Shown here: piece by piece, positions 15,547-30,915 of the stretch
How the letters are laid out: each line of letters opens with the position of its first letter
How positions within the stretch are numbered: position 1 is the stretch's first letter
Source: Methanomassiliicoccales archaeon
GTDB lineage: Archaea > Thermoplasmatota > Thermoplasmata > Methanomassiliicoccales > UBA472
Direction of reading: 5' to 3'
Length of the DNA stretch: 64,000 nt
Assembly (NCBI GenBank): GCA_026394395.1
Contig: JAPKYK010000001.1
Location: forward strand, 287,940 to 351,939
Notes under the pieces: model-generated
Databases searched by the model: none
The model's input: the letters and a program-made list of their open reading frames with translations, nothing else
What the model was told of the DNA's origin: nothing
Position numbers and translations under genes: made by a program

Positions 15547-16224
15547 TCAAAAGGATTGTTGATGTTTGGCGGCCTCGCTCTGAGCCAGCTCCCGGGCGCG
15601 GTTGAGGAACCTCGCCAGGTTGGTCGTCCCGCAAGGCCGGATCACGTGCTTCAACCCCAGCTCTTCCGCGAACTGGCGCGAGAGCCCCTCGTACTTCTCC
15701 GCCTCGCCCACCGCGGTGTCTACGTAGGCGCATAGCTCGTAGTTCTCGAAGAGCATGTCCAGGAAGTACTTCGGCTCATACCCCTGATCGACCATGGCGT
15801 CGAGGTGCAATTCCTTGACCGCGCCCTCGATGCCCCTGAGCGCCCATCCAGGAGTATTGAACCAGGTGCCCCCACACAGCCGTTTCTGCCGCTCGTACTC
15901 CACAGGGCCGAGTATTGCGGCGATGCAGTCGTCCCCTTCCAGCATGACCGTAGGTACCTTGAGCTTGGAGGTGATGCCCGACAATGATTGGCAGACGGCG
16001 TACCCCAGGAAGACGGCATCGGCCTGTCCTGTCAAGGCGTCAACCTTGTCCTGTACCTTGGCCCGCAGCTCGTCGACGTTGATGTGCAAAGCGAACTCCA
16101 GGTATTCCTTGTGCACCACGTCGTCCCAGCCTTCAGTGAGCTTCTCCAGTTCCGGTTTGAGTATCTCGCAGGCGATTATGGCCAGGCGGCCCCTTCCGTT
16201 GGGGGTAGAGGTCGCCCCGTCCAA
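15547..16224 (-). CDS. DUF1638 family protein
   Basis: A 225-residue member of the DUF1638 family, found mostly in methanogens and anaerobes with corrinoid methyltransferases. The function is unknown. It starts RLAIIACEILKPELEKL, has a GYAVCQSLSG stretch near residue 75 and LEGDDCIAAILG near 95, and conserved Cys residues that could bind a metal. The start appears to be TTG 16224, with a GGAGGGA ribosome binding site in front. It directly follows the small 103-residue gene, in the same operon. Association with methylamine- and methoxy-type methyltransfer genes elsewhere makes a supporting role there plausible; that is inference. Confidence 0.8.
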   Translation of the reverse strand: MDGATSTPNGRGRLAIIACEILKPELEKLTEGWDDVVHKEYLEFALHINVDELRAKVQDKVDALTGQADAVFLGYAVCQSLSGITSKLKVPTVMLEGDDCIAAILGPVEYERQKRLCGGTWFNTPGWALRGIEGAVKELHLDAMVDQGYEPKYFLDMLFENYELCAYVDTAVGEAEKYEGLSRQFAEELGLKHVIRPCGTTNLARFLNRARELAQSEAAKHQQSF

Positions 16225-16225
16225 A

Positions 16226-16537
16226 TTAATCCCTCCGGGACAAGCGGAACAGGCGCTCCAGGTATTCCGCGGTCATGTTCCAGTCCTTGCAATCGACTAT
16301 AGAGTCGAATATGGGGTTCTCGTCGTCCAGGGTCCACATGTGCTCGGGCGCCGGGGAATCGAAATGGATCACCATCATGCGATAGCCCCCTTTCTTGCTC
16401 GCATCGCTCTTGGGACTGGAAACGACCGAGGCCCCGTAATCGTTGGGGAAGCGGTAGATTTTATGAAAGCGGTTCCCTTCCATGCAGCCGCAGGGGCATT
16501 TGGCATTCAGGTCGATGACGTAGGGGTCGAAGTCCAA
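16226..16537 (-). CDS. Small uncharacterised protein with CPCGC motif
   Basis: A 103-residue protein I do not recognise. Near the N-terminus it has a CPCGCMEGNRFHKI stretch, which could hold a metal, and its C-terminal half is charged and helical. The start is TTG 16537, supported by GAGGTAG a few bases upstream; there is no nearby in-frame ATG. It is one base from the DUF1638 gene, so the two probably form one transcript, divergent from fur. The shared gap carries the Fur-type palindrome, so metal control of this pair is possible. Confidence 0.55.
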   Translation of the reverse strand: MDFDPYVIDLNAKCPCGCMEGNRFHKIYRFPNDYGASVVSSPKSDASKKGGYRMMVIHFDSPAPEHMWTLDDENPIFDSIVDCKDWNMTAEYLERLFRLSRRD

Positions 16538-16656
16538 ATCGCTACCTCACATGATATTTGAAACTTGCCAAGGCCGGTCCGAGCGGTTCGGTCAGGCGAG
16601 TCGCTTTTCGTTAAAACGCATAACTATCTGATATGTCTTCCGAAGATAACAATAAT

Positions 16657-16665
16657 TTTATAAAC
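16657..16665 (+). promoter_or_regulatory. TATA box of fur-cbiMNQO
   Basis: TTTATAAAC in an AT-rich gap, placing transcription start near 16685-16690 and leaving almost no leader before the fur ATG at 16692. The overlapping palindrome at 16675-16689 would block initiation when bound. Confidence 0.6.
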
Positions 16666-16674
16666 TTAATAAGG

Positions 16675-16689
16675 TAGTAATGATTACTA
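16675..16689 (+). promoter_or_regulatory. 7-1-7 palindrome, probable Fur-family operator
   Basis: TAGTAAT-G-ATTACTA is a perfect 7-1-7 inverted repeat, the classic symmetry of Fur/Zur/Nur boxes. It covers the predicted transcription start of fur and runs to three bases before the ATG at 16692. Position and symmetry support metal-dependent autoregulation and control of the downstream cbiMNQO genes. Confidence 0.6.
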
Positions 16690-16691
16690 TT

Positions 16692-17078
16692 ATGAATTCG
16701 TACCCTTCCCGATGGACCAAGCAGATGAAGGTCGTGGTCGACATCGTCTATGACGCCCAGGCTCCGGTCACCGCGGACCATGTATACGAAAGCGCCAGGA
16801 GCGTCCTTCCCCGCATTAGCCTGGGGACCGTGTACCGCAACCTGAACCGGCTGGTGCAGTCCGGGCTCATATCCGAGTCCAAGGTCGGCGCGGTGCAGTG
16901 CTTCTTCTCCCACCCTTATTCCAACACCCATCTGGAATGCAAGGTTTGCGGCCGGCTGTTCAACGTCAGCTACGAACTGCAACTGGGGCAGGTAGCCAGG
17001 GAGACCGGGCTGCGGTTGGAGGGGTATGAGCTACGATTGAAAGGCCTATGTAAGGAGTGTGCCTCGAAATGCATATAA
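16692..17078 (+). CDS. fur: Fur family metal-responsive repressor
   Basis: A 128-residue Fur/PerR/Nur-type regulator: an N-terminal winged helix (SLGTVYRNLNRL is the recognition helix region, about residues 45-57) and a C-terminal dimerisation domain with zinc cysteines in CKVCGRLF and CKECASKC. HPYSNTHLEC supplies histidine ligands. ATG 16692 is preferred over an ATG four codons earlier because the operator palindrome covers the earlier one. Its end overlaps the cbiM start by 10 bases, so it is the first gene of a metal-uptake operon. Whether it senses nickel, cobalt or iron cannot be decided; the downstream genes favour nickel or cobalt. Confidence 0.88.
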   Translation: MNSYPSRWTKQMKVVVDIVYDAQAPVTADHVYESARSVLPRISLGTVYRNLNRLVQSGLISESKVGAVQCFFSHPYSNTHLECKVCGRLFNVSYELQLGQVARETGLRLEGYELRLKGLCKECASKCI

Positions 17079-17737
17079 TGGAGGGTTATCTGGACATCTA
17101 TTGGTGCTTGTTCTGGGCCTTGCTAGCGCTGCCCTTCCTGATTTACGGGTTCTACTCCATCAGGAGGATGCTGAGGGAGGACCCGGGGCAAAAGACGGTC
17201 CTGGCATTGTCCGGGGCGTTCATCTTCGTTCTTTCCTCTCTAAAGATGCCTTCGGTTACCGGTTCCTCATCCCATCCCACTGGAACCGGATTCTCCACTA
17301 TGTTCTATGGTGTCGGCGTGACCTCCATCCTTTCTCTCATCGTGCTGATATTCCAGGCATTACTGCTAGCGCATGGCGGCCTGACCACCCTCGGTGCAAA
17401 TGTGTTCTCCATGGGCATTGCTGGCCCTCTGGTCGCCTTCCTGGTATTCAAAGCCCTGACCAAGGCTGGCGCATCCACTCCGGTGAAGGTGTTCATCACA
17501 GTTTTCATCGCGGACCTCATGACCTACGTTATGACCTCCATCGAATTGGCGCTGGCCTTCGGCCCGTTCACTGATTCTTTTATAAGCTTCATGTCGATCT
17601 TCGCCATAACCCAGATACCCCTGGGAATCGTGGAAGGCATACTCTTCACCATTTTCATCGACTACCTGGAAAGGGCCAGGCCAGACCTAACGGAAAGGAT
17701 ATTCCCTAAAAAGAGGGGGACTGAAGCTGAATCGTAA
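17069..17737 (+). CDS. cbiM: Cobalt/nickel ECF transporter S component CbiM
   Basis: A 222-residue substrate-binding membrane component of an ECF metal importer with about six transmembrane helices. ATG 17069 gives an N-terminus MHIMEGYL. In CbiM/NikM proteins the first residues (Met1, His2) themselves coordinate Co2+ or Ni2+, so this start is strongly favoured over an ORF start four codons upstream. A His at SSSHPTG near residue 70 matches the second ligand region. It overlaps the end of fur. Cobalt uptake would supply the corrinoid methyltransferase genes nearby; nickel is the other option. Confidence 0.92.
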   Translation: MHIMEGYLDIYWCLFWALLALPFLIYGFYSIRRMLREDPGQKTVLALSGAFIFVLSSLKMPSVTGSSSHPTGTGFSTMFYGVGVTSILSLIVLIFQALLLAHGGLTTLGANVFSMGIAGPLVAFLVFKALTKAGASTPVKVFITVFIADLMTYVMTSIELALAFGPFTDSFISFMSIFAITQIPLGIVEGILFTIFIDYLERARPDLTERIFPKKRGTEAES

Positions 17738-18026
17738 TTACTATTATTTTCTGGGTTTCGTCGCCATCGCCATGATATTGGTCGCAGCCATAATTTTGAA
17801 CCCGTCCTCTGATTTCGGAGGCACTGACGACAGCGGCGGAAAGACGATAGGTAAGATCGACCCGAACTATGAGCCGTGGTTCCACAGTCTGTGGGAGCCC
17901 TCCGGCGAAACGGCGACGCTGCTGTTCTGCCTGCAGACAGCCATAGGCGCCCTGGTGATCGGATATTTCATCGGTGTCACCCATCAGAGGAATTTGACCG
18001 TCAACAAGGAACAGGGAAAGGAGTAA
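17727..18026 (+). CDS. cbiN: ECF cobalt transport accessory protein CbiN
   Basis: A two-helix accessory protein that assists metal loading of CbiM. The second half is diagnostic: SSDFGGTDD, then IDPNYEPWFHSLWEPSGE and a second helix LLFCLQTAIGALVIGYFIG. The only ATG in the frame (17772) would cut the first membrane helix in half, and there is no ATG, GTG or TTG between that ATG and the in-frame TAA at 17688-17690. CTG codons at 17721 and 17727 follow a GAGGGGGA ribosome binding site and restore the helix, so a CTG start is proposed (99 residues; 84 if ATG 17772). It overlaps the cbiM stop. Confidence 0.85.
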   Translation: MNRNYYYFLGFVAIAMILVAAIILNPSSDFGGTDDSGGKTIGKIDPNYEPWFHSLWEPSGETATLLFCLQTAIGALVIGYFIGVTHQRNLTVNKEQGKE

Positions 18027-18029
18027 GGG

Positions 18030-18815
18030 ATGTTCGAACTCGACGAGCTTGCATACCGGTCCGCATGTTTGAAGTGGTCCCCCACTGGCAAGTTCGTTTT
18101 CGTTCTGACCCTGCTGATATCCTCGCTCCTATCCAAGTCCCTGTTGGTGCCCATAGTGATAGCGGTCATCGGCATCGTCCTGCTGGGATATTCCATCCGC
18201 TTCAGATTCCCCAAGATCATAGGTATCATTTTGCTGGACGCTATAGGAATGATGATCCTGGGTGCGATCATCATAGCCGCGGTCACGCCCGGGGACACCA
18301 TATACAACCTAGACCTATGGCTGTTCCAGATTGATTTCTCGAATGCTGGAATATTCATCGCTACCCTGGTCACAATGCGGGCGTTGGCCGGTATGAGCGT
18401 CATGCTGTTCTTCGCCACCTCCACCCCCATTCCCTACTTCGCGGACATGCTGGTCCGGATGAAGGTGCCGAAGGAGTTCGCCGAGCTCATGACCTTGGTC
18501 TACCGCTATTCCTTCATGCTGTTCGACGAACTGGAAAAAATGTATCTGGCAGCCCAGTGCCGGCTCGGTTTCCGGGGCAAGATGAACTCCCTGCGCACCT
18601 ACGCCAAGATGCTTACCGGGATGTTCATCCGGTCCATCGAGACGGCGGAGAGGCAGAACATCGGCATGCAGTGCCGCAACTATCAGAGCAGCGTCAGCAT
18701 GTTACGAGAGCCAAAAGGGATCACCTACGCCTGGGGCATCGTCAGCGTCATCGCCTTCCTGGGGCTGTTCCAGCTCAACTTAATGTGCGTCCACGTCGGA
18801 TTACTGTTGGGGTAG
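18030..18815 (+). CDS. cbiQ: ECF transporter T component CbiQ
   Basis: A 261-residue transmembrane coupling protein that links CbiM to the ATPase. It has five or six hydrophobic segments. The coupling-helix signatures are seen as AAQCRLGF near residue 170 and AERQNIGMQCRNY near 208-220, corresponding to the two A-R-G motifs of T components. It sits three bases after cbiN and four before cbiO. It ends in TAG. Confidence 0.93.
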   Translation: MFELDELAYRSACLKWSPTGKFVFVLTLLISSLLSKSLLVPIVIAVIGIVLLGYSIRFRFPKIIGIILLDAIGMMILGAIIIAAVTPGDTIYNLDLWLFQIDFSNAGIFIATLVTMRALAGMSVMLFFATSTPIPYFADMLVRMKVPKEFAELMTLVYRYSFMLFDELEKMYLAAQCRLGFRGKMNSLRTYAKMLTGMFIRSIETAERQNIGMQCRNYQSSVSMLREPKGITYAWGIVSVIAFLGLFQLNLMCVHVGLLLG

Positions 18816-18819
18816 ATCG

Positions 18820-19962
18820 ATGAGCAGGACCTTGGTCGAATGTCAGAACGTCAGCTTCGAATATCCCAACCGAGGCCAGGCCCTGCGCGACATCTCCCTC
18901 AGCATCGAGGAGGGGAAAAAGACCGCCATAATCGGCCCCAACGGCGCCGGCAAGTCCACTCTGTTCCTGCATTTCAACGGCGTGCTGAAACCCAAATCAG
19001 GCCAGGTGCTGTTCCAAGGCCAACCGATCGTCTACCGCAACAAGGAGCTCAGCCAGCTGCGAAAGGAGGTGGCGGTCATACTGCAGAACCCGGACGACCA
19101 GATATTCTCGGCCACAGTGGAGGAGGACGTGGCCTTCGGTCCCCTGAACCTGGGGCTGCCCCGGGACGAGGTAGAGGCCCGGGTGGACGAGGCGCTGTCA
19201 TTGGTCGACATGTCCCACATACGAGAACGACCGTCGCAGCAGCTGTCCTTCGGACAAAGGAAACGGCTTGCGCTGGCCGGTGCCCTGGCCATGCGCCCTA
19301 AGGTGCTAATAATGGACGAGCCGACCGCGGGCCTGGACCCGCACATGGTGCAGGAGGTCCTAGAGCTCACGGAGGAGCTGCACATGAAAGGCATAACGCT
19401 CATCATGTCCACCCACGAGATGGAGGTGGCCTACTCCTGGGCCGATGACTTCAAGGTCGTGCACCAGGGGCGGCTGATGTTCTCGGGTGGGGCGGACGAG
19501 CTGTTCGCCAACCGCACCTTGCTAGAGCTTTTGGGCTTCCAAGCCCCGCCGGTCTACCGCATGAACGAGGAGATGGTCAGGTCCGCGCTCATGTCCGTGG
19601 AGCCGGTGCCGAGGAATATGACCGAGATGAGATTGAAGATCAGCCACATGAACCGCCGGCCTATCGGCGGCATGCACATCAAGGAGGTGGACCAAGACCG
19701 TATCCCGACCATACTGGAAGTGCACGGACTGATCTCCCAGGGGAAGGTGGTGGGATACTACGGTTCCACGGCCAAGCACCTGCTGGCCAGCACCCTGCCC
19801 ACCGACGTGAGGCTGCCGGGATTGACCGAATGCTTGGACAAGATGATCGACGGCCGGGAGGCGGTGCTGTACGCCGAACCTAAGCTGATGCCCTTCATCG
19901 AGCATCATATTAATAATTTAGCTCGAAAGCATCATTCCCGCATCGAAGTGACCCGCGATTGA
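18820..19962 (+). CDS. cbiO: ECF transporter ATPase CbiO with C-terminal extension
   Basis: A 380-residue ABC ATPase powering the metal importer. Walker A is GPNGAGKST near residue 40, the Q-loop is in LQNPDDQIF near 88, the signature is LSFGQRKRLALAG near 143 and Walker B is VLIMDEPTAGLDP near 162. CbiO proteins are usually about 270-290 residues; here about 100 extra C-terminal residues follow, with a mixed alpha/beta character of unknown role. It ends the fur-cbiMNQO run with TGA. A fresh TATA box at 20012 begins the next unit. Confidence 0.93.
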   Translation: MSRTLVECQNVSFEYPNRGQALRDISLSIEEGKKTAIIGPNGAGKSTLFLHFNGVLKPKSGQVLFQGQPIVYRNKELSQLRKEVAVILQNPDDQIFSATVEEDVAFGPLNLGLPRDEVEARVDEALSLVDMSHIRERPSQQLSFGQRKRLALAGALAMRPKVLIMDEPTAGLDPHMVQEVLELTEELHMKGITLIMSTHEMEVAYSWADDFKVVHQGRLMFSGGADELFANRTLLELLGFQAPPVYRMNEEMVRSALMSVEPVPRNMTEMRLKISHMNRRPIGGMHIKEVDQDRIPTILEVHGLISQGKVVGYYGSTAKHLLASTLPTDVRLPGLTECLDKMIDGREAVLYAEPKLMPFIEHHINNLARKHHSRIEVTRD

Positions 19963-20011
19963 GGTCGACCCCAGCTGTGATTTCGTACGATGAACAGGGC
20001 TTAACGATTGC

Positions 20012-20020
20012 CTTATAAAC
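20012..20020 (+). promoter_or_regulatory. TATA box of the hydantoinase-DGC operon
   Basis: CTTATAAAC about 50 bases before the ATG at 20068. A GGAGGG ribosome binding site at 20055-20060 follows, so a short leader is expected. Confidence 0.6.
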
Positions 20021-20067
20021 ACTTGATTGATTCAAAACATAGCACAGCAAAGATGGAGGGTCAGAAG

Positions 20068-22095
20068 ATGAATCTGGGATTGGGAATCGACACCGGAGGA
20101 ACTTACACTGACACGGCGCTGATCGACCTGAGCAACGGCAAGGTCCTGGTCAAGGCCAAGGCCCTGACCACCAGGAACGACCTGAGCATAGGCATCTCCG
20201 GTTCCATAAAGAACCTTGGGCAGATACAGTTCCAGGACATTCGCCTCGTATCGCTATCATCCACCCTGGCCACCAACTCCGTGGTCGAGGGGAAGGGGTG
20301 CCGGGTGGCGCTCATTATAGCCGGCGAGGAGTACAAGGAGAGCGTGCCGGTCGAGCACGTCATCCAGATACAGGGCGGTCACACCATCCGGGGCAAGGCC
20401 ATCTGCGACGTGGACCTGGCCGCGGCCAAGGACTTCATCCAGGGCATCGCCGACCAGATCGACGCCGTGGCGATATCCACATTCTTCAGCGTGCGCAACC
20501 CCGAGCACGAGATCGCTCTAAAGGAGATGATCTCCAGCAACTGGGGCATTCCCGTGGTCTGCGGCCACGAGCTGTCCACGCAGCTGGGGTTCTACGAACG
20601 CACGCTTACCGCGGTGCTCAACGCCAAGCTCATCCCGATCATGGCCGACCTTCTTCAGTCGGTCAAGAAGGTGCTCAAGGAGAACGCCATAGCCGCTCCG
20701 TTGATGATCGTCAAGGGTGACGGTTCGCTGATGGGCGAACAGATGGGCATCGAGCGCCCGGTCGAAACGATATTGTCTGGACCGGCGGCAAGCCTGGTGG
20801 GGGCCAGGAACCTGACGGGCGAGGACGAGGGTGTGGTCGTGGACGTCGGTGGGACCACCACGGACATCGGGGTGCTGCGCGGCGGCAAACCTCGTCTGGA
20901 CCCAGAAGGAGCTATCATTGGCGGCTGGCGCACCAGGGTCAAGGCCGCAGACATATCCACGTCCGGCATCGGCGGCGACAGCCGGGTGGTCATCGTCAAC
21001 GAGAACATCGTCCTGGGCGCGCTGCGGGTTATGCCGCTGTGCATCGCCTCCAGCCAATACCCGAGAGTGAAGGAGGCCCTGGTCAAGGCCAAGGGGCTCA
21101 AGCAGACCCCCCCGGCCACGCACATCGCCCTGGAGAACATATTGCAGGCCGACGAGCTGTTCATCTTCTCCCGCCTGGCCAAGGGCTACGAGCTCTCCGA
21201 GAGCGAGAAGGTCCTGGTGGACCAGATCAAGGAGCAGCCCAAGACCTTGCACGAGATCTCCGAAGCGACCAAGGTGCACCCGTACAGCTACAACGTGCGC
21301 AAACTGGAGGAGCTGGGAATAATCACTCGCATCGGTTTCACCCCCACCGACGCCCTGCACGCCTCCGGCGAGTACGTGGAGTACGACGCCGAGGCCTCGA
21401 AGATCGCTGCGGAATACCGTGCCAGGCTGTGCGGGATGGAGGTCAAGGAGTTCTGCGCCGCGGTCAAGGAGGCGGTGATACAGAAGATCGCCCGGGAGAT
21501 CATCTACCGTCTGGTCTACGAGGATACTGGCAAGATGTCCCATTGCGAGGTCTGTGACTCCTTCTACGAGAAGATGATCACCCACCGTGCAGGTATCGAC
21601 TACTCCGCGGACATCCGGGTTCACAAGAACATCATAGGTATCGGCGCACCCATCGCCGCCTACCTGCCATCGGTGGCCGAGAGGTTGCACACCAGTCTGC
21701 TCATGCCCCAAAACTCGGACGTAGGGAACGCCGTCGGAGCGATCACTGGCAGCATAATGGAGTCCGTGGAGGTGCTCATAAAACCAAAGCCCGGTCTCGG
21801 GGTCATGGAGGACCCGCCCTGCAGCCTGCACTCCCAGGCCGAGATGAGGGAGTTCGAGACCGTCACCGAGGCGGTCACCTATGCCAGTTCGTGGGGTGAC
21901 ATCATAGTACGTCGCATGGCCTCGATGGCCGGTGCCGACGAGATCGAAGTAGTCGTGGAGAACAACCGTATCATGGGCCAGATCGGTAAAACATGGGGCG
22001 AGGGGCTGCTGCTGGAGGTTCACTTGAAAGTGACGGCGGTAGGCAAGCCCCGTATGTACTTCGAGGTGGAGCATGAGTCAGACGAGTTCGATTGA
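20068..22095 (+). CDS. Hydantoinase/oxoprolinase-like ASKHA protein with winged-helix insert
   Basis: A 675-residue protein of the hydantoinase A/5-oxoprolinase family, whose members use ATP in an ASKHA fold to open cyclic amides or activate ketones. Hydantoinase A N-terminal phosphate-binding loop GIDTGGTYTDTALID is at residues 5-19 and the second nucleotide loop VDVGGTTTDIGVL at about 258-270. Around residues 382-421 is an insert that reads as a winged helix (TLHEISEATKVHPYSYNVRK then LEELGIITR). ATG 20068 is chosen because GGAGGG precedes it and the ATP loop begins five residues in. Two DGC-domain genes follow with overlaps. The hydantoinase B partner is missing, so a true hydantoinase is doubtful; an ATP-dependent role in corrinoid or C1 metabolism is an inference from the neighbours. 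Confidence 0.8.
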   Translation: MNLGLGIDTGGTYTDTALIDLSNGKVLVKAKALTTRNDLSIGISGSIKNLGQIQFQDIRLVSLSSTLATNSVVEGKGCRVALIIAGEEYKESVPVEHVIQIQGGHTIRGKAICDVDLAAAKDFIQGIADQIDAVAISTFFSVRNPEHEIALKEMISSNWGIPVVCGHELSTQLGFYERTLTAVLNAKLIPIMADLLQSVKKVLKENAIAAPLMIVKGDGSLMGEQMGIERPVETILSGPAASLVGARNLTGEDEGVVVDVGGTTTDIGVLRGGKPRLDPEGAIIGGWRTRVKAADISTSGIGGDSRVVIVNENIVLGALRVMPLCIASSQYPRVKEALVKAKGLKQTPPATHIALENILQADELFIFSRLAKGYELSESEKVLVDQIKEQPKTLHEISEATKVHPYSYNVRKLEELGIITRIGFTPTDALHASGEYVEYDAEASKIAAEYRARLCGMEVKEFCAAVKEAVIQKIAREIIYRLVYEDTGKMSHCEVCDSFYEKMITHRAGIDYSADIRVHKNIIGIGAPIAAYLPSVAERLHTSLLMPQNSDVGNAVGAITGSIMESVEVLIKPKPGLGVMEDPPCSLHSQAEMREFETVTEAVTYASSWGDIIVRRMASMAGADEIEVVVENNRIMGQIGKTWGEGLLLEVHLKVTAVGKPRMYFEVEHESDEFD

Positions 22096-22426
22096 CCTAG
22101 CCATTTGCAGCGGCTTCAGTCCCGGGGCCCGGGTCCTGCGAGCTGCAGTCAGAGAGCTGGCCAAGGAAGAGGGCATCCGCGTCGTCACCATAGCCCCCGC
22201 CCTGGCCGGAATTCCGAAGGCCGTGGAGGAGATGCGCTCCCTGCAGGAACGGAAGGTCATCGTTGTCGATGGCTGCGAAGGGGGATGCGGCCTACAGGTC
22301 CTCAACCGCTTCGAGGTGCTGCCATCATCCATCGTCATGATCGAGAAGCATTTCAACGTCACCAGGAAAGGCATCGATAAGGCGAAGGAGCAGATCCGCC
22401 AGGCCATCAAGGAGGTGCGCGGTTGA
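22073..22426 (+). CDS. DGC-domain putative zinc-binding protein
   Basis: A 117-residue member of the DGC family of small, cysteine-bearing proteins. The eponymous motif is VVDGCEGGCGLQ near residues 64-75, with an additional Cys at ICSGFSPGAR near residue 13. The family is predicted to bind zinc; the biochemical role is not established. It overlaps the hydantoinase end by 23 bases and hands over to the second DGC gene in a TTGA overlap, so the three are one translational unit. Partner proteins for metal or cofactor handling is the best guess. Confidence 0.75.
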   Translation: MSQTSSIDLAICSGFSPGARVLRAAVRELAKEEGIRVVTIAPALAGIPKAVEEMRSLQERKVIVVDGCEGGCGLQVLNRFEVLPSSIVMIEKHFNVTRKGIDKAKEQIRQAIKEVRG

Positions 22427-22800
22427 GGAAGGGGGTCATCGTCTGCGGGGCCAACGGGGAGAGGGGCTACCTTCTAGAGAAGGTGACGGAATCCTTCGCC
22501 AAGGGCAACATGGACAAGGTCATCCAGTTCTCGGTGTGCACCGTGGGCCTCAGCCCGATAATGCTGGAGATGGGCGGGGTGGACATGGGCACCCTGGTCA
22601 CCGTCAACGGTTGTCGTAACCGCTGCTGCGACCGGCTGATGGAACAGAACGAGTTGAGGATAGGGAAGTCCGTGACCGTCGACGATCACGTCCAGCGGAA
22701 GCTCAGGCCTTGCCAGTTCACCTCAGACTTCGACTTCGAGGAAGCGACCGAGGACGAGGTGTCGGCGATGGTCAAAGCCATGGAAGAGGCTATACGCTGA
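22423..22800 (+). CDS. Second DGC-domain protein
   Basis: A 125-residue paralogue-like neighbour of the previous gene. It keeps the layout with VIVCGANGERG at the N-terminus and VTVNGCRNRCCDRL near residues 60-73, where the DGC motif has become NGC followed by a CC pair. The start is TTG 22423, overlapping the upstream stop. Its own stop abuts the stop of the convergent zinc-ribbon gene, leaving no room for a terminator between the two operons. Two different DGC proteins side by side suggest a heterodimer; that is inference. Confidence 0.72.
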   Translation: MRKGVIVCGANGERGYLLEKVTESFAKGNMDKVIQFSVCTVGLSPIMLEMGGVDMGTLVTVNGCRNRCCDRLMEQNELRIGKSVTVDDHVQRKLRPCQFTSDFDFEEATEDEVSAMVKAMEEAIR

Positions 22801-23118
22801 TTAGCGGTTCTTCTTCCAGCCTTGCTGATTATAATAATCCTTGACGACCGAGGTGACGTGCTGGGAGATCTGGCGCTCCCTCAGGTCTCCCCGGATGTGC
22901 GGGGCTTCCTTGAAGTAGAACTCGTAATCGCACTTGGCGCAGCGGACCTTGGGGCAGTTGTTCATGACCTCGGCGCAGCCTCGGCAGGCGAAGGTGCGGG
23001 CGTAGGTGATAGAGAACTCGAAGCCGCAGTTAGGGCACTTGAACTTGCGGATGGAGTCGACGGTGTTGCGCGAGAACCCCTGGGCCCTCATGGCCTGATA
23101 GTACGTGTCCATGCTCAA
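22801..23118 (-). CDS. Multi-zinc-ribbon small protein
   Basis: A 105-residue protein with three CxxC-type pairs: CPNCGFEF near residue 28, CRGCAEVM near 46 and CAKCDYEF near 60, plus an extra Cys at NNCPKVRC. This looks like two rubredoxin-like or zinc-ribbon knuckles. The C-terminus is basic. ATG 23118 overlaps the stop of the 157-residue gene by four bases. It is the last gene of the G3E GTPase operon. I do not recognise the family; a metallochaperone or electron carrier would fit. Confidence 0.6.
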   Translation of the reverse strand: MSMDTYYQAMRAQGFSRNTVDSIRKFKCPNCGFEFSITYARTFACRGCAEVMNNCPKVRCAKCDYEFYFKEAPHIRGDLRERQISQHVTSVVKDYYNQQGWKKNR

Positions 23119-23588
23119 CCCCCGTGATGCGCCGCGCTCTTCTCCTTATCGTAGGAGTCCTTGATGATCTGGAACTTCACTCCGTGCTTCTTGGCCAGGT
23201 CCTCCAGGACACCCATGGTCTGCTCGCGCACCTCCGGGTCCCAGATGCCATGGACGATCACGTGCACGATGACCTCGGCCTTCTCTATGGTATCGTTCTT
23301 CAGCTGCTTGGTGATGTTGACCTTCATGTTCTGATGTATGAGGGAGAAACCTACAGTGGAGCCATCGTCCACCATCATGAACGCCTTTACATGTCCTACC
23401 AGGTCGGCACCGTGGTGCAGGCAGGCGTCCGTGGTCTTGATGAGCAACTCTTCGATGAACGAGATCGCCCTATCTGCCGAAGCTCCCTTACCAAAGTCGG
23501 TCTTCATATGCAAAGAGAATTTACCAAGCTCGTCCACCGCCCGGTGCATTTCTAGATGTAGGTCATCGTCCTCATCCAGTTCCGTCAT
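23115..23588 (-). CDS. Uncharacterised 157-residue protein between a G3E GTPase and a zinc-ribbon gene
   Basis: I do not recognise this protein. It starts acidic, has an alpha/beta pattern and an unusual set of histidines (DACLHHGADLVGH near residue 57, VIVHVIVHGIW near 108), and ends SAAHHGG, a possible metal-binding tail. There are no membrane segments. It overlaps both neighbours by four bases (ATGA junctions), so it is obligatorily co-expressed with the G3E GTPase. His-rich tails next to COG0523 GTPases often indicate metal delivery; that role is inferred from context only. Confidence 0.55.
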   Translation of the reverse strand: MTELDEDDDLHLEMHRAVDELGKFSLHMKTDFGKGASADRAISFIEELLIKTTDACLHHGADLVGHVKAFMMVDDGSTVGFSLIHQNMKVNITKQLKNDTIEKAEVIVHVIVHGIWDPEVREQTMGVLEDLAKKHGVKFQIIKDSYDKEKSAAHHGG

Positions 23589-24259
23589 TGGGTCTTACCC
23601 CCGTAGTCCCTCTTGAGCATCTCCTTCTCACAGGACTCATCGTAGCGAGGAGATGTCCTGATCTCGATCAGGTCGGCCGCTTCTCTAACTCCTTCGTTGT
23701 TCCTTCCCGAACCGAACATAATCTCAGCCTTGGGGTTGATGGATCTGGAGAACTGAACCGACAGATCGATCTTCTCCTGGGTGGCGCTGTCAATCTTGTT
23801 GATGAAGACCACATCGGCCTCGCGTATCTGCGTCTCGACAAGGCGGCGAACTGAATGCATTAGCTCCTCGATCCTCAATGCGTCCACCAAGGTGATAACC
23901 GGCGCGTGGACGATGGTCTCATCCATCTCCTCCTCGGAATACTCGGCGGCGCGCTTCAATCCCCACGGGATGGCCACTCCCGACGGTTCTACAATAATGA
24001 GGTCAGGATGGAACGTTTTCTGCAACACTGCGATGGTGTTGGCAAAATTGCCAGCTATCTGGCAGCAAATGCATCCACCCGATATCTCCTTGGCTTTCAG
24101 CCCATACATCTCAACTATCCTGACATCTACGTTGATCTCGCCTACATCGTTGACGATGATGGCGATCTTATGGCCGCGGTCCACCAGAATCTTGGCCAAC
24201 TCTATGAGGAAGGTGGTCTTGCCGCTTCCCAGAAAACCTGCGACCTGAGCGATCTTCAT
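23585..24259 (-). CDS. G3E family GTPase (CobW/HypB-like metallochaperone)
   Basis: A 224-residue P-loop GTPase of the G3E group, which drives insertion of metals or cofactors. Walker A is GFLGSGKTT at residues 8-16, the metal-binding CxCC motif is GGCICCQ near 63-69, and the base-specifying motif is NKID near 157. It is shorter than CobW proteins, lacking their C-terminal domain. ATG 24259 is chosen because the P-loop then starts normally. It lies 97 bases downstream of the methyltransferase gene across a UUCG-loop hairpin. Service to the corrinoid protein or zinc methyltransferase is a reasonable inference. Confidence 0.85.
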   Translation of the reverse strand: MKIAQVAGFLGSGKTTFLIELAKILVDRGHKIAIIVNDVGEINVDVRIVEMYGLKAKEISGGCICCQIAGNFANTIAVLQKTFHPDLIIVEPSGVAIPWGLKRAAEYSEEEMDETIVHAPVITLVDALRIEELMHSVRRLVETQIREADVVFINKIDSATQEKIDLSVQFSRSINPKAEIMFGSGRNNEGVREAADLIEIRTSPRYDESCEKEMLKRDYGGKTQ

Positions 24260-24309
24260 CAGTTCACCAGTATGTTCGGAAATCAAGTTCCAAGTATGAA
24301 TAGGTTGTT

Positions 24310-24354
24310 AAAAAATGAAAAGGAAAAGGTTTGAAGGTGATGGCCGAAGCCATC
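24310..24354 (-). terminator. UUCG-loop hairpin followed by pyrimidine-rich tract
   Basis: On the minus strand GATGGC-TTCG-GCCATC (24354-24339) forms a perfect 6-bp stem with a UUCG tetraloop, starting three bases after the methyltransferase stop, and runs into CCTTTTCCTTTTCATTTTTT. This looks like a terminator or a processing/stability element that lowers expression of the downstream G3E genes relative to the methyltransferase pair. Confidence 0.6.
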
Positions 24355-24356
24355 GT

Positions 24357-25454
24357 TCAGCACTTAACCTGACCGTACTGCTTGACGGTGTTCACGCACT
24401 CCTTGATGTTCTCCAGGCGGGTGGTTACCGACGGAGGCACTTCGCAGCCGGAGGCAACAACGTACCTGGACTTCAGGCCGCGGGCGCACAGGGCCGTCTT
24501 GACCTCCTGGCATAGGTTCATGGTGGTCTTCTGCATCTTCTCCTGGCTCCACCTGATGAAGCCCTGAGGGTCGATATTTCCGGCCACCAGGCAGTTGTCC
24601 GCGAAGCCCTTCCCGATGGTCTCCGTCGGAGACGGGGAACCGGGTATCAGCGGGTAATAGGCCATGGAGTAGATGGCCGGCTTCATTTTCTTGATTTGGG
24701 TGTCCAGATGGGGCAGGTCGGCGCAGTTGTGGATGCAGTTGGCCATCCCTTCCTTGGCCACCAGCTCGTTCAGCGAGCCAGCGTACTTGTGCTGTCCCTC
24801 GAACTCGTCGTACTCCTGGTCGCCCAAACAGGAGTAGGAGCCCCAGAGGTAGTCCCATACCAGTCCGGCAGGTTTCGCCTTTGCCATACCCTTCACCATC
24901 TCCTTGTCGAACTCGGTGATAGTGGCGAGCGCCTTGTGCACTGCGGAGCGGTTGTTGTACATATCCATGAAGACCTTCTCCGCGCTGGCTGACTGCGTCA
25001 GCACCAGCAGTGGTCCCTCTACAAACCCGGCGGTGATGGTCTCGTTCTTCAAGGCGTCCACCCACAGTCTGGTCCCCTCAAGGAGAACTCCCGAGCGGCC
25101 TTTGGTCACATCAGGCACTTTGAGCTTTTCATAGTCCTCTGGCCCCTTGATCGCCGGGACATCAACGAACGGGGTGTTCTGCTCGTCCATCCTGACATGC
25201 GCACCCAGATCCCCGGCCATGACCGACAAATCCACCAGACCGATGGTGAAATCGAAGTCGAAGTACTTCTGCCCGGAGATGAATCCCTGAGCGAGCTTCT
25301 TGGGGTCGGAACACCAATCCCTGTACAGCATCTTGCCGTCCCCGACCGTCCGGCGGCAAACGCCGCAGGCGATAGGGTATACCGGCAGCCTGTCAACCGG
25401 CTGGTTAGTCAGGGCTGCCATGCACCTCTCTTGATGTTTCATTGTGTCAGTCAT
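24357..25454 (-). CDS. Uroporphyrinogen-decarboxylase-type corrinoid methyltransferase
   Basis: A 365-residue zinc enzyme of the UroD/MtaA/MtbA superfamily, which moves methyl groups between a corrinoid protein and a thiol such as coenzyme M, or from a methylated substrate to the corrinoid. The zinc ligands are visible as HNC near residues 246-248 and a downstream Cys in ASGCEVPPSV near 336-345, the usual H-x-C...C set. It follows the corrinoid protein gene after a single base, so they form the core of a methyltransfer system. Which half-reaction it catalyses, and on which substrate, cannot be read. ATG 25454 is preferred to a long ORF overlapping the corrinoid gene. No in-frame TAG is present, so it is not a pyrrolysine enzyme. 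Confidence 0.88.
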   Translation of the reverse strand: MTDTMKHQERCMAALTNQPVDRLPVYPIACGVCRRTVGDGKMLYRDWCSDPKKLAQGFISGQKYFDFDFTIGLVDLSVMAGDLGAHVRMDEQNTPFVDVPAIKGPEDYEKLKVPDVTKGRSGVLLEGTRLWVDALKNETITAGFVEGPLLVLTQSASAEKVFMDMYNNRSAVHKALATITEFDKEMVKGMAKAKPAGLVWDYLWGSYSCLGDQEYDEFEGQHKYAGSLNELVAKEGMANCIHNCADLPHLDTQIKKMKPAIYSMAYYPLIPGSPSPTETIGKGFADNCLVAGNIDPQGFIRWSQEKMQKTTMNLCQEVKTALCARGLKSRYVVASGCEVPPSVTTRLENIKECVNTVKQYGQVKC

Positions 25455-25455
25455 C

Positions 25456-26094
25456 TTACATCGCCCCCTTGACCTTCTTGACCGCTTCCTGGGCATTGAT
25501 GGCGTGCATGTCCGCCCCGATGTCATCCGCGAACGGTTGGGACGTCGGCGCACCACCGATGATGATCTTTACCTTCGTGCGGTCCCCGTTCTCGATCAGT
25601 CCGTCGACCACGGCCTTCATGCCGTCCATTGTGGGCGTCATCAAGGTGCTCATGGCAATCAGGTTGGCCTTCTCTTTCTTAACAGAGTTCACGAAGTTCT
25701 CGATCGGAACGTCCCTCCCGAAGTCGTGCATGTCCAGACCGGCGGCGGTCAGCATGGTCTTGACGATGTTCTTGCCGATATCATGAACATCTCCCTCGAT
25801 CACGCCAATGACACCGACCCTCTTCTTGTCGCTATCTGCCTTCGGGATATGAGGAAGCAGAACGTCCAGACCACCATACATTGCGTTGGCGGCCAGCAAC
25901 ACCTGGGGCAGGAAGAATTCGTGTTTTGCGTACTTATCCCCGACAATCGTCATTCCCTTCACGAGCCCATTGTCGATGGCGTCCAAAGCTTTGACGCCTC
26001 CGGCCAAGGCATCCTTGGCGAATTTTATGGAGTCGGCCTTGTTGCCAGTGATGACAGCCTTCTCCAATCCAGCCAAAATATCCTTTCCTTGCAT
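25456..26094 (-). CDS. Corrinoid (B12-binding) methyl-carrier protein, MtbC/MttC type
   Basis: A 212-residue methyl carrier: a helical cap domain (residues 1-85) followed by a Rossmann B12-binding domain. The cobalt-ligand motif is EGDVHDIGKN near residues 98-107, the DxHxxG signature, with a matching MSTLMT near 148 and IIIGGAP near 176-182. It is the first gene of the methyltransferase operon, with a TATA box at 26159-26151 and GGAGAGG ribosome binding site. It carries the methyl group between substrate-side and thiol-side methyltransferases. Only one methyltransferase is adjacent, so a second one must be elsewhere. Confidence 0.92.
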   Translation of the reverse strand: MQGKDILAGLEKAVITGNKADSIKFAKDALAGGVKALDAIDNGLVKGMTIVGDKYAKHEFFLPQVLLAANAMYGGLDVLLPHIPKADSDKKRVGVIGVIEGDVHDIGKNIVKTMLTAAGLDMHDFGRDVPIENFVNSVKKEKANLIAMSTLMTPTMDGMKAVVDGLIENGDRTKVKIIIGGAPTSQPFADDIGADMHAINAQEAVKKVKGAM

Positions 26095-26150
26095 TTGTTC
26101 AACACCTCTCCACTTACCAAATTATGGTAATAATTACAAACGCAGATGGG

Positions 26151-26159
26151 GATATAAAC
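26151..26159 (-). promoter_or_regulatory. TATA box of the corrinoid methyltransferase operon
   Basis: Read on the minus strand this is GTTTATATC, about 60 bases before the corrinoid gene ATG at 26094. Initiation near 26125-26130 would give a 30-base leader with GGAGAGG near its end. Confidence 0.55.
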
Positions 26160-26167
26160 TATCGTTA

Positions 26168-26186
26168 TGGATGGTTTATCCATCCA
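26168..26186. promoter_or_regulatory. 7-5-7 palindrome upstream of the methyltransferase operon
   Basis: TGGATGG-TTTAT-CCATCCA is a perfect inverted repeat lying just upstream of the TATA box of the corrinoid methyltransferase operon. A matching half-site (ATCCATCCAAT) recurs at 26344-26354 beside the rhodanese stop; the copy at 26178-26188 is the identical 11 bases. The placement suits an activator or a repressor of methyltransfer genes. Confidence 0.5.
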
Positions 26187-26355: not shown

Positions 26356-26628
26356 TCAATTAGCGACCGTCGCCCAGCTCTTTTCGATCTTGAGGTGGTG
26401 CGCCTTCCACGTTTCGATGCCGCCGTCTAGAACGCGGACATCGTGGAAGCCCATCTCATTCAATTGGTATACGACCCTTACGCAACGCTTGCCGACCTTG
26501 CAATAGACCAGCAGAGAAGTGTCCCGGTCCATCCTTTCGAGGCTGAACCTCAAGGAGTCGACGGGGACGTTCCTGGGCCCCTCAATCCTCTCGTTGCGAT
26601 ACTCCTCGGGGTTCCACACGTCCAGCAA
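26356..26628 (-). CDS. Rhodanese-like sulfurtransferase domain protein, start unclear
   Basis: A single rhodanese domain. The active-site loop is CKVGKRC near residues 43-49 of this frame, the thiol carrier Cys being the first. The rhodanese fold clearly extends upstream of the only usual start (TTG 26628): codons back to about 26700 encode sensible residues ending in ENGEYVLLDVWNPEEY, yet the frame reaches a TAA without an ATG, GTG or other TTG. A tandem ATG with a GGGAG site lies near 26711 in another frame, so a one-base indel or an unusual start is likely. It would bind persulfide sulfur. It is divergent from glcD. Confidence 0.6.
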   Translation of the reverse strand: MLDVWNPEEYRNERIEGPRNVPVDSLRFSLERMDRDTSLLVYCKVGKRCVRVVYQLNEMGFHDVRVLDGGIETWKAHHLKIEKSWATVAN

Positions 26629-28995: not shown

Positions 28996-30915
28996 ATGAA
29001 GAGATACCAGCACGGAAAAGTGATTTTCGGGTGGTGCGACACCTGCGGGACCCTGGTCCTAGGCGACAAATGCGGCAAATGCGGCGGTCCGGGCAGAGAT
29101 TTCGAGGTGTCCGCCCCCGGCGACATACGTCCCTGCTTCGGAAAGGGCGTCGATACGGTGGCCAACCTCTTCCTCAAGCACTTCGGTACCGCCGGGGTGC
29201 TGCGCACTCGGAACCTGTTCCTGAACAAGGTGGCCGGGGAGGACCGCACCGACGAGATCGTGCTGGATGGACGGGTGATCGGCGTCCTGCGCTTCGAACT
29301 GATCAAGAACGACTTCTCGCTGGAGCTGAAGGCGGAGGGCGCCGCCCTGATGGCCAAAGCGGCCAGGAAAGGCCTGGTCAAGGCCCATCGACCGCCAGGC
29401 CACCTCAAGGGAAAGAAGCTGAACGGGGCGGACGTGATCGAGACGCTGGGCGAGTTCCAGGCCGGGGACCCGGTCGTGGTGGTCATGGGCAACAACGTGG
29501 CCGCCGGGGAAGCCCGAACGGATTCCGCCCACGTCAAGGAGGACGAGAAGGTCATCCACCTCCGGGACGTGGGCAAGGCCGACATCCCCTTCCCCCTGGT
29601 ATCCGCCTCCTGGGAGGACTTCGTTAAAGCTAACAAGAATCATCTCCAGGCCTTGGAATCGAGCGCGGTCAGCGACATCCGCTCCTTCATCAATAATACG
29701 AAGCTGCCCATCACCCTATCCTTCTCCGGAGGAAAAGACTCGCTGGCCTGCTATGGCCTGGCCAAGAAGGCCCTGAAACGCTTCGACCTGCTCTTCGTGG
29801 ACACCGGCCTAGAGTTCCCGGAGACGGTGGAGTACGTGCAAAACTTCGCCCAGGCCAGAAAGGAAAGGTTAAGGGTGGCTAGTGCTGGGAACGCCTTCTG
29901 GGAGCAGGTAGGCTCCTTCGGCCCTCCGGCCAAGGACTTCCGCTGGTGCTGCAAGGTGTGCAAGCTGGGGCCATTGACCTCCATGATCGAGGCTCACTTC
30001 CCCCAGGGAACGGTCACCATCGAAGGCAACCGGGCCTTGGAGTCCTTCGCCCGCTCGGAGATAGGCTTCGTGGAGCGCAACCCCTTCGTCCCCAACCAGA
30101 CCGTGCTGAACCCCATTAGGCACTGGACGGCCGCGGAGGTCTGGGGCTACATCTGGCTCGAGGAGCTGGAATACAACCCCCTGTACGAGAACGACTTCGA
30201 GCGCATCGGCTGCTACCTGTGCGCCTCCTGCCTGGGCAGCGAGTGGAAGGCCACCGGCGAACTGCACCCGGACCTGCACTCGGAGTGGGAAGCCCAATTG
30301 AACGAATGGGGAGAGAAGGTGGGCGTGTCGCCCGAGTTCGTCCGTTACGGGTTCTGGCGCTGGAAATCGCTGCCGCCCAAGATGAGGTTGGTGGCCGAGG
30401 AACTGCACATGAAGGTGCCGCAAATGAGGAGCGATAGCATGGAACTGAGGATCTCCAAAGGAGCCAGCCCCTGCGTGGCCGGGGGCTTCTCCATGGAAGG
30501 TGTGCTGACCGTGCCGCACAAAAGGGACTTCTCCCAGGTGGCCGAGGTCCTGAAGACCGTGGGCAAGGTGAAGTACTCCCCGGAGTTCGAGGTTGTGATG
30601 GTCAAGACCAGGGACGGGACGCTCAAGATGTTCGGCGGCGGGCACATCTCCGCCATCGCCCCGACCAAGGAGGGGACCGAGAAACTGTTCCGCGCTGGCG
30701 CCGAAGCTTTCCTCAAAGGGCAGATGTGCACCAACTGCCGCATCTGCGAGCGCAACTGCAAGTTCGGAGCCATCACCGCCGATGGGCAGCTCAGGGTGGA
30801 CGAATACAAGTGCCGACAGTGCGGGAAATGCGCGGAGGCCTGCGTCGTGGCCCATTACTACGACAAGCTGGTGGACGCTGGAAAAGGAAAACCGGCCTAC
30901 GCAGGCGTTAAATAA
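28996..30915 (+). CDS. Zinc ribbon-PUA-PAPS reductase-like-ferredoxin fusion protein
   Basis: A 639-residue multidomain protein of the archaeal phosphoadenosine-phosphosulfate-reductase-like group. The order is an N-terminal zinc ribbon (CDTCG...CGKCGG, residues 13-33), a PUA-like RNA-binding region (about 60-180), an ATP-pyrophosphatase domain with the SFSGGKDS loop near 241-248 and CCKVCK near 318, a cysteine pair CYLCASC near 407, and two C-terminal 4Fe-4S clusters (CTNCRICERNC, CRQCGKCAEAC) near 577-620. Ferredoxin and PUA domains argue for nucleic-acid thiolation or cofactor sulfur chemistry rather than plain sulfate assimilation. The function of this architecture is not established. Confidence 0.87.
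   Translation: MKRYQHGKVIFGWCDTCGTLVLGDKCGKCGGPGRDFEVSAPGDIRPCFGKGVDTVANLFLKHFGTAGVLRTRNLFLNKVAGEDRTDEIVLDGRVIGVLRFELIKNDFSLELKAEGAALMAKAARKGLVKAHRPPGHLKGKKLNGADVIETLGEFQAGDPVVVVMGNNVAAGEARTDSAHVKEDEKVIHLRDVGKADIPFPLVSASWEDFVKANKNHLQALESSAVSDIRSFINNTKLPITLSFSGGKDSLACYGLAKKALKRFDLLFVDTGLEFPETVEYVQNFAQARKERLRVASAGNAFWEQVGSFGPPAKDFRWCCKVCKLGPLTSMIEAHFPQGTVTIEGNRALESFARSEIGFVERNPFVPNQTVLNPIRHWTAAEVWGYIWLEELEYNPLYENDFERIGCYLCASCLGSEWKATGELHPDLHSEWEAQLNEWGEKVGVSPEFVRYGFWRWKSLPPKMRLVAEELHMKVPQMRSDSMELRISKGASPCVAGGFSMEGVLTVPHKRDFSQVAEVLKTVGKVKYSPEFEVVMVKTRDGTLKMFGGGHISAIAPTKEGTEKLFRAGAEAFLKGQMCTNCRICERNCKFGAITADGQLRVDEYKCRQCGKCAEACVVAHYYDKLVDAGKGKPAYAGVK

Follow-up and report, generated by a model that had tools for sequence, protein, structure and literature searches.

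The 64,000-nucleotide window analysed here (contig JAPKYK010000001.1 of assembly GCA_026394395.1, positions 287,940 to 351,939) comes from a Methanomassiliicoccales methanogen near UBA472 and carries a conserved, order-wide corrinoid methyl-transfer system with a largely uncharacterised accessory set. The island combines a UroD-superfamily methyltransferase (UroD) and a methyl-corrinoid protein (CorP) with a stand-alone hydantoinase-A-like ATPase (HydA), a short G3E GTPase, a 157-residue protein (P157) and several small metal-linked proteins. From its motifs and gene associations, we read the island as a thioether/thiol (or selenium) methyl-transfer module that has its own pair of proteins for loading metal and an ATP-dependent factor for corrinoid maintenance, a reading to which we assign a probability of about 0.5. 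How corrinoid methyltransferases are supplied with metal and kept active is poorly known, and in this island a constant set of accessory genes accompanies them throughout the order.

Conservation, gene order and content of the island

A search of named species genomes with a P157 profile returned 72 loci, all in Methanomassiliicoccales or in records consistent with that group, the nearest being those of Methanomassiliicoccales OWC_0010 and UBA472; among 243 genomes of the phylum, P157 was confined to this order. The GTPase gene lies directly upstream of P157 at 70 of the 72 loci; of the other two, at least one (L114) lies at a contig end. We assembled neighbourhoods picked by P157 or by HydA. 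At the P157 loci with at least 18 kb of sequence (n = 30), CorP was present at 27, HydA at 26, UroD at 21 and the zinc-ribbon gene at 20, and CorP lay within 9 kb of 25 of the 29 cluster-type HydA genes (33/45 for all HydA), for which we estimate a chance expectation of a few per cent, given how few corrinoid genes 1.6 Mb contains. Counts for DGC and DUF1638 are not unbiased, because the sets were centred on P157 and HydA. The sequence-only reading had proposed a candidate corrinoid methyl-transfer island whose gene set should be sought in other archaeal genomes, and the proposal would fall if homologues of HydA and its DGC neighbours or of P157 were never near corrinoid methyltransferases. 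The set does recur across the order, in several gene orders, as a co-inherited system, and because the HydA and P157 linkage counts exceed the chance estimate, the objection does not hold.

The same genes occur in at least three orders, in families f1, f2, f3 and others. At one locus (L104), the gene for a 103-aa protein stands beside an entirely co-directional run of CorP-UroD-GTPase-P157-zinc ribbon-HydA-DUF1638-Fur-CbiM; at another (L106), a single run leads from UroD to HydA, DUF1638, Fur, CbiM and CbiO; and at a third (L095), Fur-CbiMQO-CorP-UroD-GTPase-P157 faces DGC2-DGC1-HydA. Within the window genus (L080-L084), the layout is identical to that of the window. In other families, the DUF1638 gene sits directly 3' of HydA in the same operon (L056, L088, L104, L106 and L139). 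The 103-aa gene is a repeated divergent neighbour of the corrinoid protein gene, and DGC1 comes after HydA in most families except f2.

Families in the window were assigned from Pfam and NCBIfam profiles, as follows (positions in the window, strand, description).

15547 to 16224, minus: DUF1638 protein (Pfam PF07796, 1e-31).
16226 to 16537, minus: 103-aa protein with an invariant C-x-C-G-C (27 sequences); no Pfam match.
16680 to 17078, plus: Fur-family regulator (Pfam FUR, 4e-13).
17078 to 17737, plus: CbiM, S component of a cobalt energy-coupling factor (ECF) transporter (Pfam, 2e-54; TIGR00123, 283 bits).
17772 to 18026, plus: CbiN-like open reading frame, assigned from position and sequence alone.
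18030 to 18815, plus: CbiQ-like permease, from position; kept in neighbourhoods of relatives.
18820 to 19962, plus: CbiO-like ATPase, from sequence and position; kept in neighbourhoods of relatives.
20068 to 22095, plus: HydA, stand-alone hydantoinase-A-like ASKHA ATPase, 675 aa (Hydantoinase_A, 8e-31; Hydant_A_N, 1e-28).
22073 to 22426, plus: DGC1, putative metal-binding protein (Pfam DGC, 4e-13, 49.6 bits).
22423 to 22800, plus: DGC2, in tandem with DGC1 (Pfam DGC, 7e-5, 23.2 bits, below the cut-off).
22801 to 23118, minus: zinc-ribbon protein, 105 aa, with seven near-invariant cysteines (59 sequences); no Pfam family.
23115 to 23588, minus: P157, 157 aa, probable separate CobW_C-like partner of the GTPase; no Pfam family.
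23585 to 24259, minus: short COG0523-type G3E GTPase with GGCxCC, without a CobW_C domain (Pfam CobW, 1e-38).
24357 to 25454, minus: UroD-superfamily methyltransferase with His-Cys-Cys zinc ligands (URO-D, 7e-42).
25456 to 26094, minus: CorP, methyl-corrinoid protein with intact DxHxxG (B12-binding, 5e-22; cap, 1e-18).
26356 to 26628, minus: rhodanese-like protein (Pfam, 3e-14), linked to the island in the window genus only (L080-L084).

All eight genes from HydA to CorP that the sequence-only reading had listed were found as open reading frames, with their families upheld, and its two convergent runs, HydA-DGC1-DGC2 and CorP to the zinc ribbon, indeed abut with 0 nt between DGC2 and the zinc-ribbon gene. 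Four neighbouring gene pairs overlap by 4-23 nt, CorP and UroD are 1 nt apart, and the 97 nt between UroD and the GTPase are the sole larger gap. Other parts of that reading needed adjustment. Its two operons are present here as convergent runs, but they represent one system that is rearranged in the window genus and co-directional elsewhere. The conserved unit is also wider than the eight genes, spanning ~15547-26094 and taking in DUF1638, the 103-aa protein, Fur and CbiMNQO. Of its tandem DGC proteins, DGC1 scores above the 27-bit cut-off of the family (PF08859) and DGC2 below it. P157, the 105-aa zinc ribbon and the 103-aa protein did not exceed any Pfam family cut-off.

Several further features emerged from the neighbourhoods. 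The f3 genomes (L048, L050, L105, L119 and L121) carry two non-identical tandem HydA genes before the DGC pair, possibly encoding a HydA heterodimer. The P157 gene of one Methanoplasma genome (L014 and L110, G122:C30), whose methyltransferase genes employ TAG codons, is itself interrupted by an in-frame TAG, either an amber read-through or a pseudogene. By eye, an apparent zinc-ribbon homologue (L167:11646-11951, minus strand) has a further UroD gene and an ABC transporter close by. Clusters c16, c20 and c32 of the neighbourhood set were discarded as antisense artefacts of simple gene calling. Elsewhere in the window, 28996-30915 (plus strand) encodes a PAPS-reductase-like protein with ferredoxin-type Cys motifs, in the conserved background neighbourhood GlcD-c35-c34-c33.

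A zinc-site methyltransferase and its putative metal-loading pair

The zinc ligands H239, C241 and C334 of UroD, a His-x-Cys...Cys site, are present in 51/51 sequences. Within the UroD superfamily, His-Cys-Cys ligands mark S/Se methyltransferases, while the O-demethylases have Cys replaced by carboxylates or non-coordinating residues (Kountz and Balskus, PMC10418091), and the site therefore points to an S- or Se-methyl substrate. CorP retains DxHxxG in 45/45 sequences and has the B12-binding and cap domains of methyl-corrinoid proteins of the MtaC/MtbC/MtgC type, scoring just below the TIGR02370 cut-off (214.4 against 215.3 bits). Counting against our reading, UroD stands far from all curated methyltransferase models: it scored 57.9, 48.4 and 61.7 bits with the MtaA/CmuA, MtbA and PRK06252 models, whose cut-offs are 235, 600 and 244, so that by curated cut-offs it is not an SCMT, and its sole match in the PDB was a weak one to MtaA. 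In our proposed mechanism, UroD would demethylate a thioether, a thiol or a selenium compound and hand the methyl group to CorP or on to coenzyme M, the two proteins forming an MtsA/MtsB-like arrangement; an MtaA encoded elsewhere in the host genome could complete the transfer, and Fur and CbiMNQO would regulate and supply metal.

The GTPase carries GGCxCC, the COG0523 metal motif (CxCC), in 77/77 sequences, as expected of a COG0523 G3E protein, and its chain ends after the GTPase domain, without the C-terminal CobW_C; PF07683 (CobW_C) was found in 1 of 61 relatives. A P157 model built from 59 sequences (predicted local distance difference test, pLDDT, 87; predicted template-modelling score, pTM, 0.80) has the predicted fold helix-strand-helix-four strands-helix-strand, and a Foldseek search with it returned YjiA as the best PDB match (E 1.5e-3); YjiA accounted for three of the 20 best entries. 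This model replaced a single-sequence fold (pLDDT 61.6) whose matches to peptidase-type domains were not credible. The near-invariant residues H14, C55, H65, H108 and H112 (A2 numbering) could be metal ligands. The GTPase and P157 are thus likely, on this modelling, to be a split COG0523 metallochaperone. Two results weigh against that conclusion: the TM-score of the YjiA match is low (0.31), and profile-profile alignment of P157 with eight CobW C-terminal domains in hhalign gave no support (probability 0.6%). A PDB sequence search with the P157 profile gave no match. Because the TM-scores are low and the hhalign comparison is negative, we only infer the split arrangement.

As two halves of one metallochaperone, the GTPase and P157 would load zinc into UroD; cobalt or corrinoid delivered to CorP is a less likely cargo. 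Across loci, such pairs adjoin UroD, MtaA, MtrAH, RamA and MtaB/MtaC, the more distant ones lying with RamA and MtaBC (L078), with MtrAH (L137, L143-L147) or near a RACE-like gene (L077). Zinc is favoured on account of the association described in Methanosarcina, where COG0523 genes stand beside mtaABC and ramM; MtaA and MtaB were noted in that study to be zinc-requiring enzymes (Haas et al. 2009, PMC2770081). The pair could instead be a MeaB-like chaperone that loads corrinoid into CorP. Corrinoid proteins or MtrAH are nearby in most locus types, the GTPase has a weak MeaB match in profile searches, and the island includes a cobalt importer; set against these are the universal COG0523 metal motif, the match of P157 to YjiA, which was solved with Zn(II), and the zinc dependence of MtaA and MtaB found near such pairs (PMC2770081). 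We consider corrinoid loading somewhat unlikely. The cofactor loading suggested by the sequence-only reading fits the GTPase-P157 pair, as a putative role.

Methyl routes of the host and the proposed role of HydA

The host genome (1.64 Mb, 99.85% complete) encodes McrA, and MtaB, MttB, MtmB and MtbB were not found in it. Two other genomes (G062 and G083, both 99% complete) likewise have McrA without these four MT1 families, and the four were also missing from G352, G243, G174, G246 and G134 (each at least 95% complete); all seven of these near-complete genomes bear McrA. The same four families were missing from G189 (96%), in which McrA was likewise not found. Among six UroD-family genes in the host, one is MtaA-like (305 and 301 bits). 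PF02607 corrinoid proteins number only two, the island CorP and CorP2 of a second locus (G000:C5, ~104400-119500; L040, L163 and L164), which encodes CorP2, HydA-b, an ArsP-like permease, MtaA, UroD-b, P157, GTPase, RamA, MtrH and MtrA. A stronger claim, in which CorP and CorP2 were the only carriers open to methyl groups, was withdrawn, because MtrA, encoded with MtrH at the second locus, is a third corrinoid carrier. A related MALP genome has mtaABC and mtrAH, for which methyl-tetrahydrofolate (methyl-THF):coenzyme M transfer was proposed (PMC6147122), and by analogy a similar transfer is a possible alternative route in the host. A metagenome-assembled genome (MAG) of the UBA472 family expressed genes annotated mtsDFH, for methyl-sulfur use (PMC12203004); these might be UroD/CorP genes of the present kind. 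For environmental methanogens of unclear substrates, the island is a candidate for the use of methyl-sulfur (or selenium) compounds. Methanomassiliicoccales are said to lack Mtr; the second locus nevertheless carries mtrAH.

A broader proposal would make the island a main methyl entry into methane formation from an S-/Se-methyl substrate in this host, requiring the split COG0523 metallochaperone, and would give HydA a general role, in archaea and bacteria alike, in maintaining corrinoid methyltransferases at the expense of ATP. Taken as a whole, we regard this as doubtful. A rival possibility is that the island is an assimilatory or salvage module (sulfur, selenium or methionine recycling) that yields no energy, UroD freeing thiol or selenide and CorP passing the methyl group onward. 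This accords with the zinc ligands of UroD, His-Cys-Cys, with the gene clusters already described for S/Se methyl recycling (PMC10418091), with the rhodanese adjoining the island in the window genus, and with the presence of the island in genomes that have full methanol or methylamine systems; however, a cobalt importer and a maintenance set of its own speak for high flux, and the island contains no methionine synthase. Salvage seems to us unlikely.

HydA has intact ATP motifs and an invariant C324. Its closest solved relatives are 5-oxoprolinase and N-methylhydantoinase, and it has a weaker match to MutL/GlmL, which are accessory ATPases of B12-dependent mutases. No HydB-like gene, the usual companion in hydantoinases and 5-oxoprolinases, occurs among its conserved neighbours, which bears out the earlier remark that HydA lacks a B partner, and no RamA or DUF4445 match was obtained. 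Its associations extend beyond the island: in one archaeal genome (G128), HydA is 0.4 kb from MttB, and plasmid-borne relatives in proteobacteria align over 98% of its length with ~35% identity. The Azoarcus KH32C relative belongs to a choline/glycine-betaine region: an MttB-family gene is ~7 kb off, and genes for a corrinoid protein, DUF1638 and RACE are no more than 18 kb away. The relatives of Mesorhizobium amorphae and strain NZP2077 are 1-2 kb from an MttB-family gene and a betaine transporter. Glycine-betaine methyltransferase clusters in the literature also include a gene labelled HydA (PMC9768040), and DUF1638, together with a RamA-like protein, is required for the split B12-dependent methionine synthase of Phaeobacter, with no mechanism offered (Price et al., PMC5764234). 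No plasmid relatives were found for DUF1638 or DGC2 of the window. In Rhodobacter CZR27, a full-length HydA relative (L170, 8364-10547) has selD two genes away and mnmH nearby, which may hint at a connection to selenium.

HydA may therefore serve maintenance rather than substrate activation, as its position beside several methyltransferase types suggests. It would be an ASKHA factor that spends ATP to hold corrinoid proteins in their active state or to swap their cofactor, and DUF1638 and the small Cys-rich proteins would be its partners; the ATP-dependent reactivation put forward by the sequence-only reading is a fair, if conditional, reading of the protein. On the other side, no Fe-S motif is visible in HydA, RamA is encoded elsewhere in the genome, five other annotated bacterial HydA loci have no corrinoid gene neighbours, and some archaeal relatives are likewise not near corrinoid genes. 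Because of the first two points, a redox role would need a partner. HydA as a replacement for a missing RamA was rejected, RamA being present. A RACE-like ferredoxin/ASKHA protein is encoded at L166:13006-14925 (plus strand), by eye near a UroD gene and a MetE/MesB-like gene, and the host may therefore have two corrinoid activases.

Alternatively, HydA could activate the substrate, using ATP to phosphorylate the methyl donor at a carbonyl or amide, in the manner of 5-oxoprolinase or acetophenone carboxylase, before UroD demethylates it. The Hydantoinase_A and Hydant_A_N domains, the intact ATP motifs and the nearest solved relatives would suit such chemistry, but HydA has no HydB subunit, its Pfam match spans only half of the Hydantoinase_A profile, and its paralogues stand beside UroD, MtaA/RamA and MttB types, which a generic role fits better; we judge substrate activation quite unlikely. 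That the island is merely a loose metal-homeostasis cluster placed by chance beside a methyltransferase is highly improbable and already disfavoured: Fur, CbiMNQO, DGC and zinc-ribbon proteins all have a link to metals, but different families share this set in several arrangements, some of them single runs in one direction.

Comparison with known systems

The sequence-only reading did not recognise the combination of genes. The accessory set is indeed largely uncharacterised, and a literature search pairing corrinoid with "hydantoinase A" found no paper, but parts of it have been published (PMC2770081, PMC9768040 and PMC5764234). The island offers testable partners for HydA, DUF1638 and COG0523 proteins, and it adds three unnamed protein families.

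The MtsA/MtsB methylthiol:coenzyme M methyltransferase of Methanosarcina shares with the island a UroD-type zinc methyltransferase with His-Cys-Cys ligands, a small corrinoid protein and no third MT1 gene; the island UroD nonetheless falls far below the cut-offs of the curated coenzyme M methyltransferase models. The accessory genes are not known to be part of that system. Type 1 mlp clusters likewise combine a His-Cys-Cys UroD methyltransferase and a corrinoid protein with predicted S/Se chemistry, and contain at least Mlp2 and Mlp3 with a corrinoid protein (CP) and Ram/RACE (PMC10418091), whereas the island has one UroD rather than two or three SCMT-like Mlps, no Ram/RACE, and the additional HydA, GTPase and small proteins. 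COG0523 subfamily 13 (PMC2770081) provides the precedent of a CobW-family GTPase adjoining corrinoid methyltransferase genes in a methanogen; the island GTPase differs in lacking CobW_C, in being followed by a separate 157-aa protein, and in having UroD, CorP and HydA as partners.

For HydA, the closest parallels are the glycine betaine clusters of strain DCMF and relatives (PMC9768040), Azoarcus KH32C and the Mesorhizobium plasmids, where a stand-alone HydA accompanies an MttB-type methyltransferase and, in Azoarcus, also a corrinoid protein, DUF1638 and RACE; those clusters use the MttB family and a folate acceptor instead of UroD and coenzyme M, and no GTPase-P157 pair was seen there. RamA/RACE activases are likewise ASKHA-type ATPases serving corrinoid proteins, the role we propose for HydA, but HydA is without their Fe-S domain and matches hydantoinase models, while the true RamA is encoded elsewhere in the genome.

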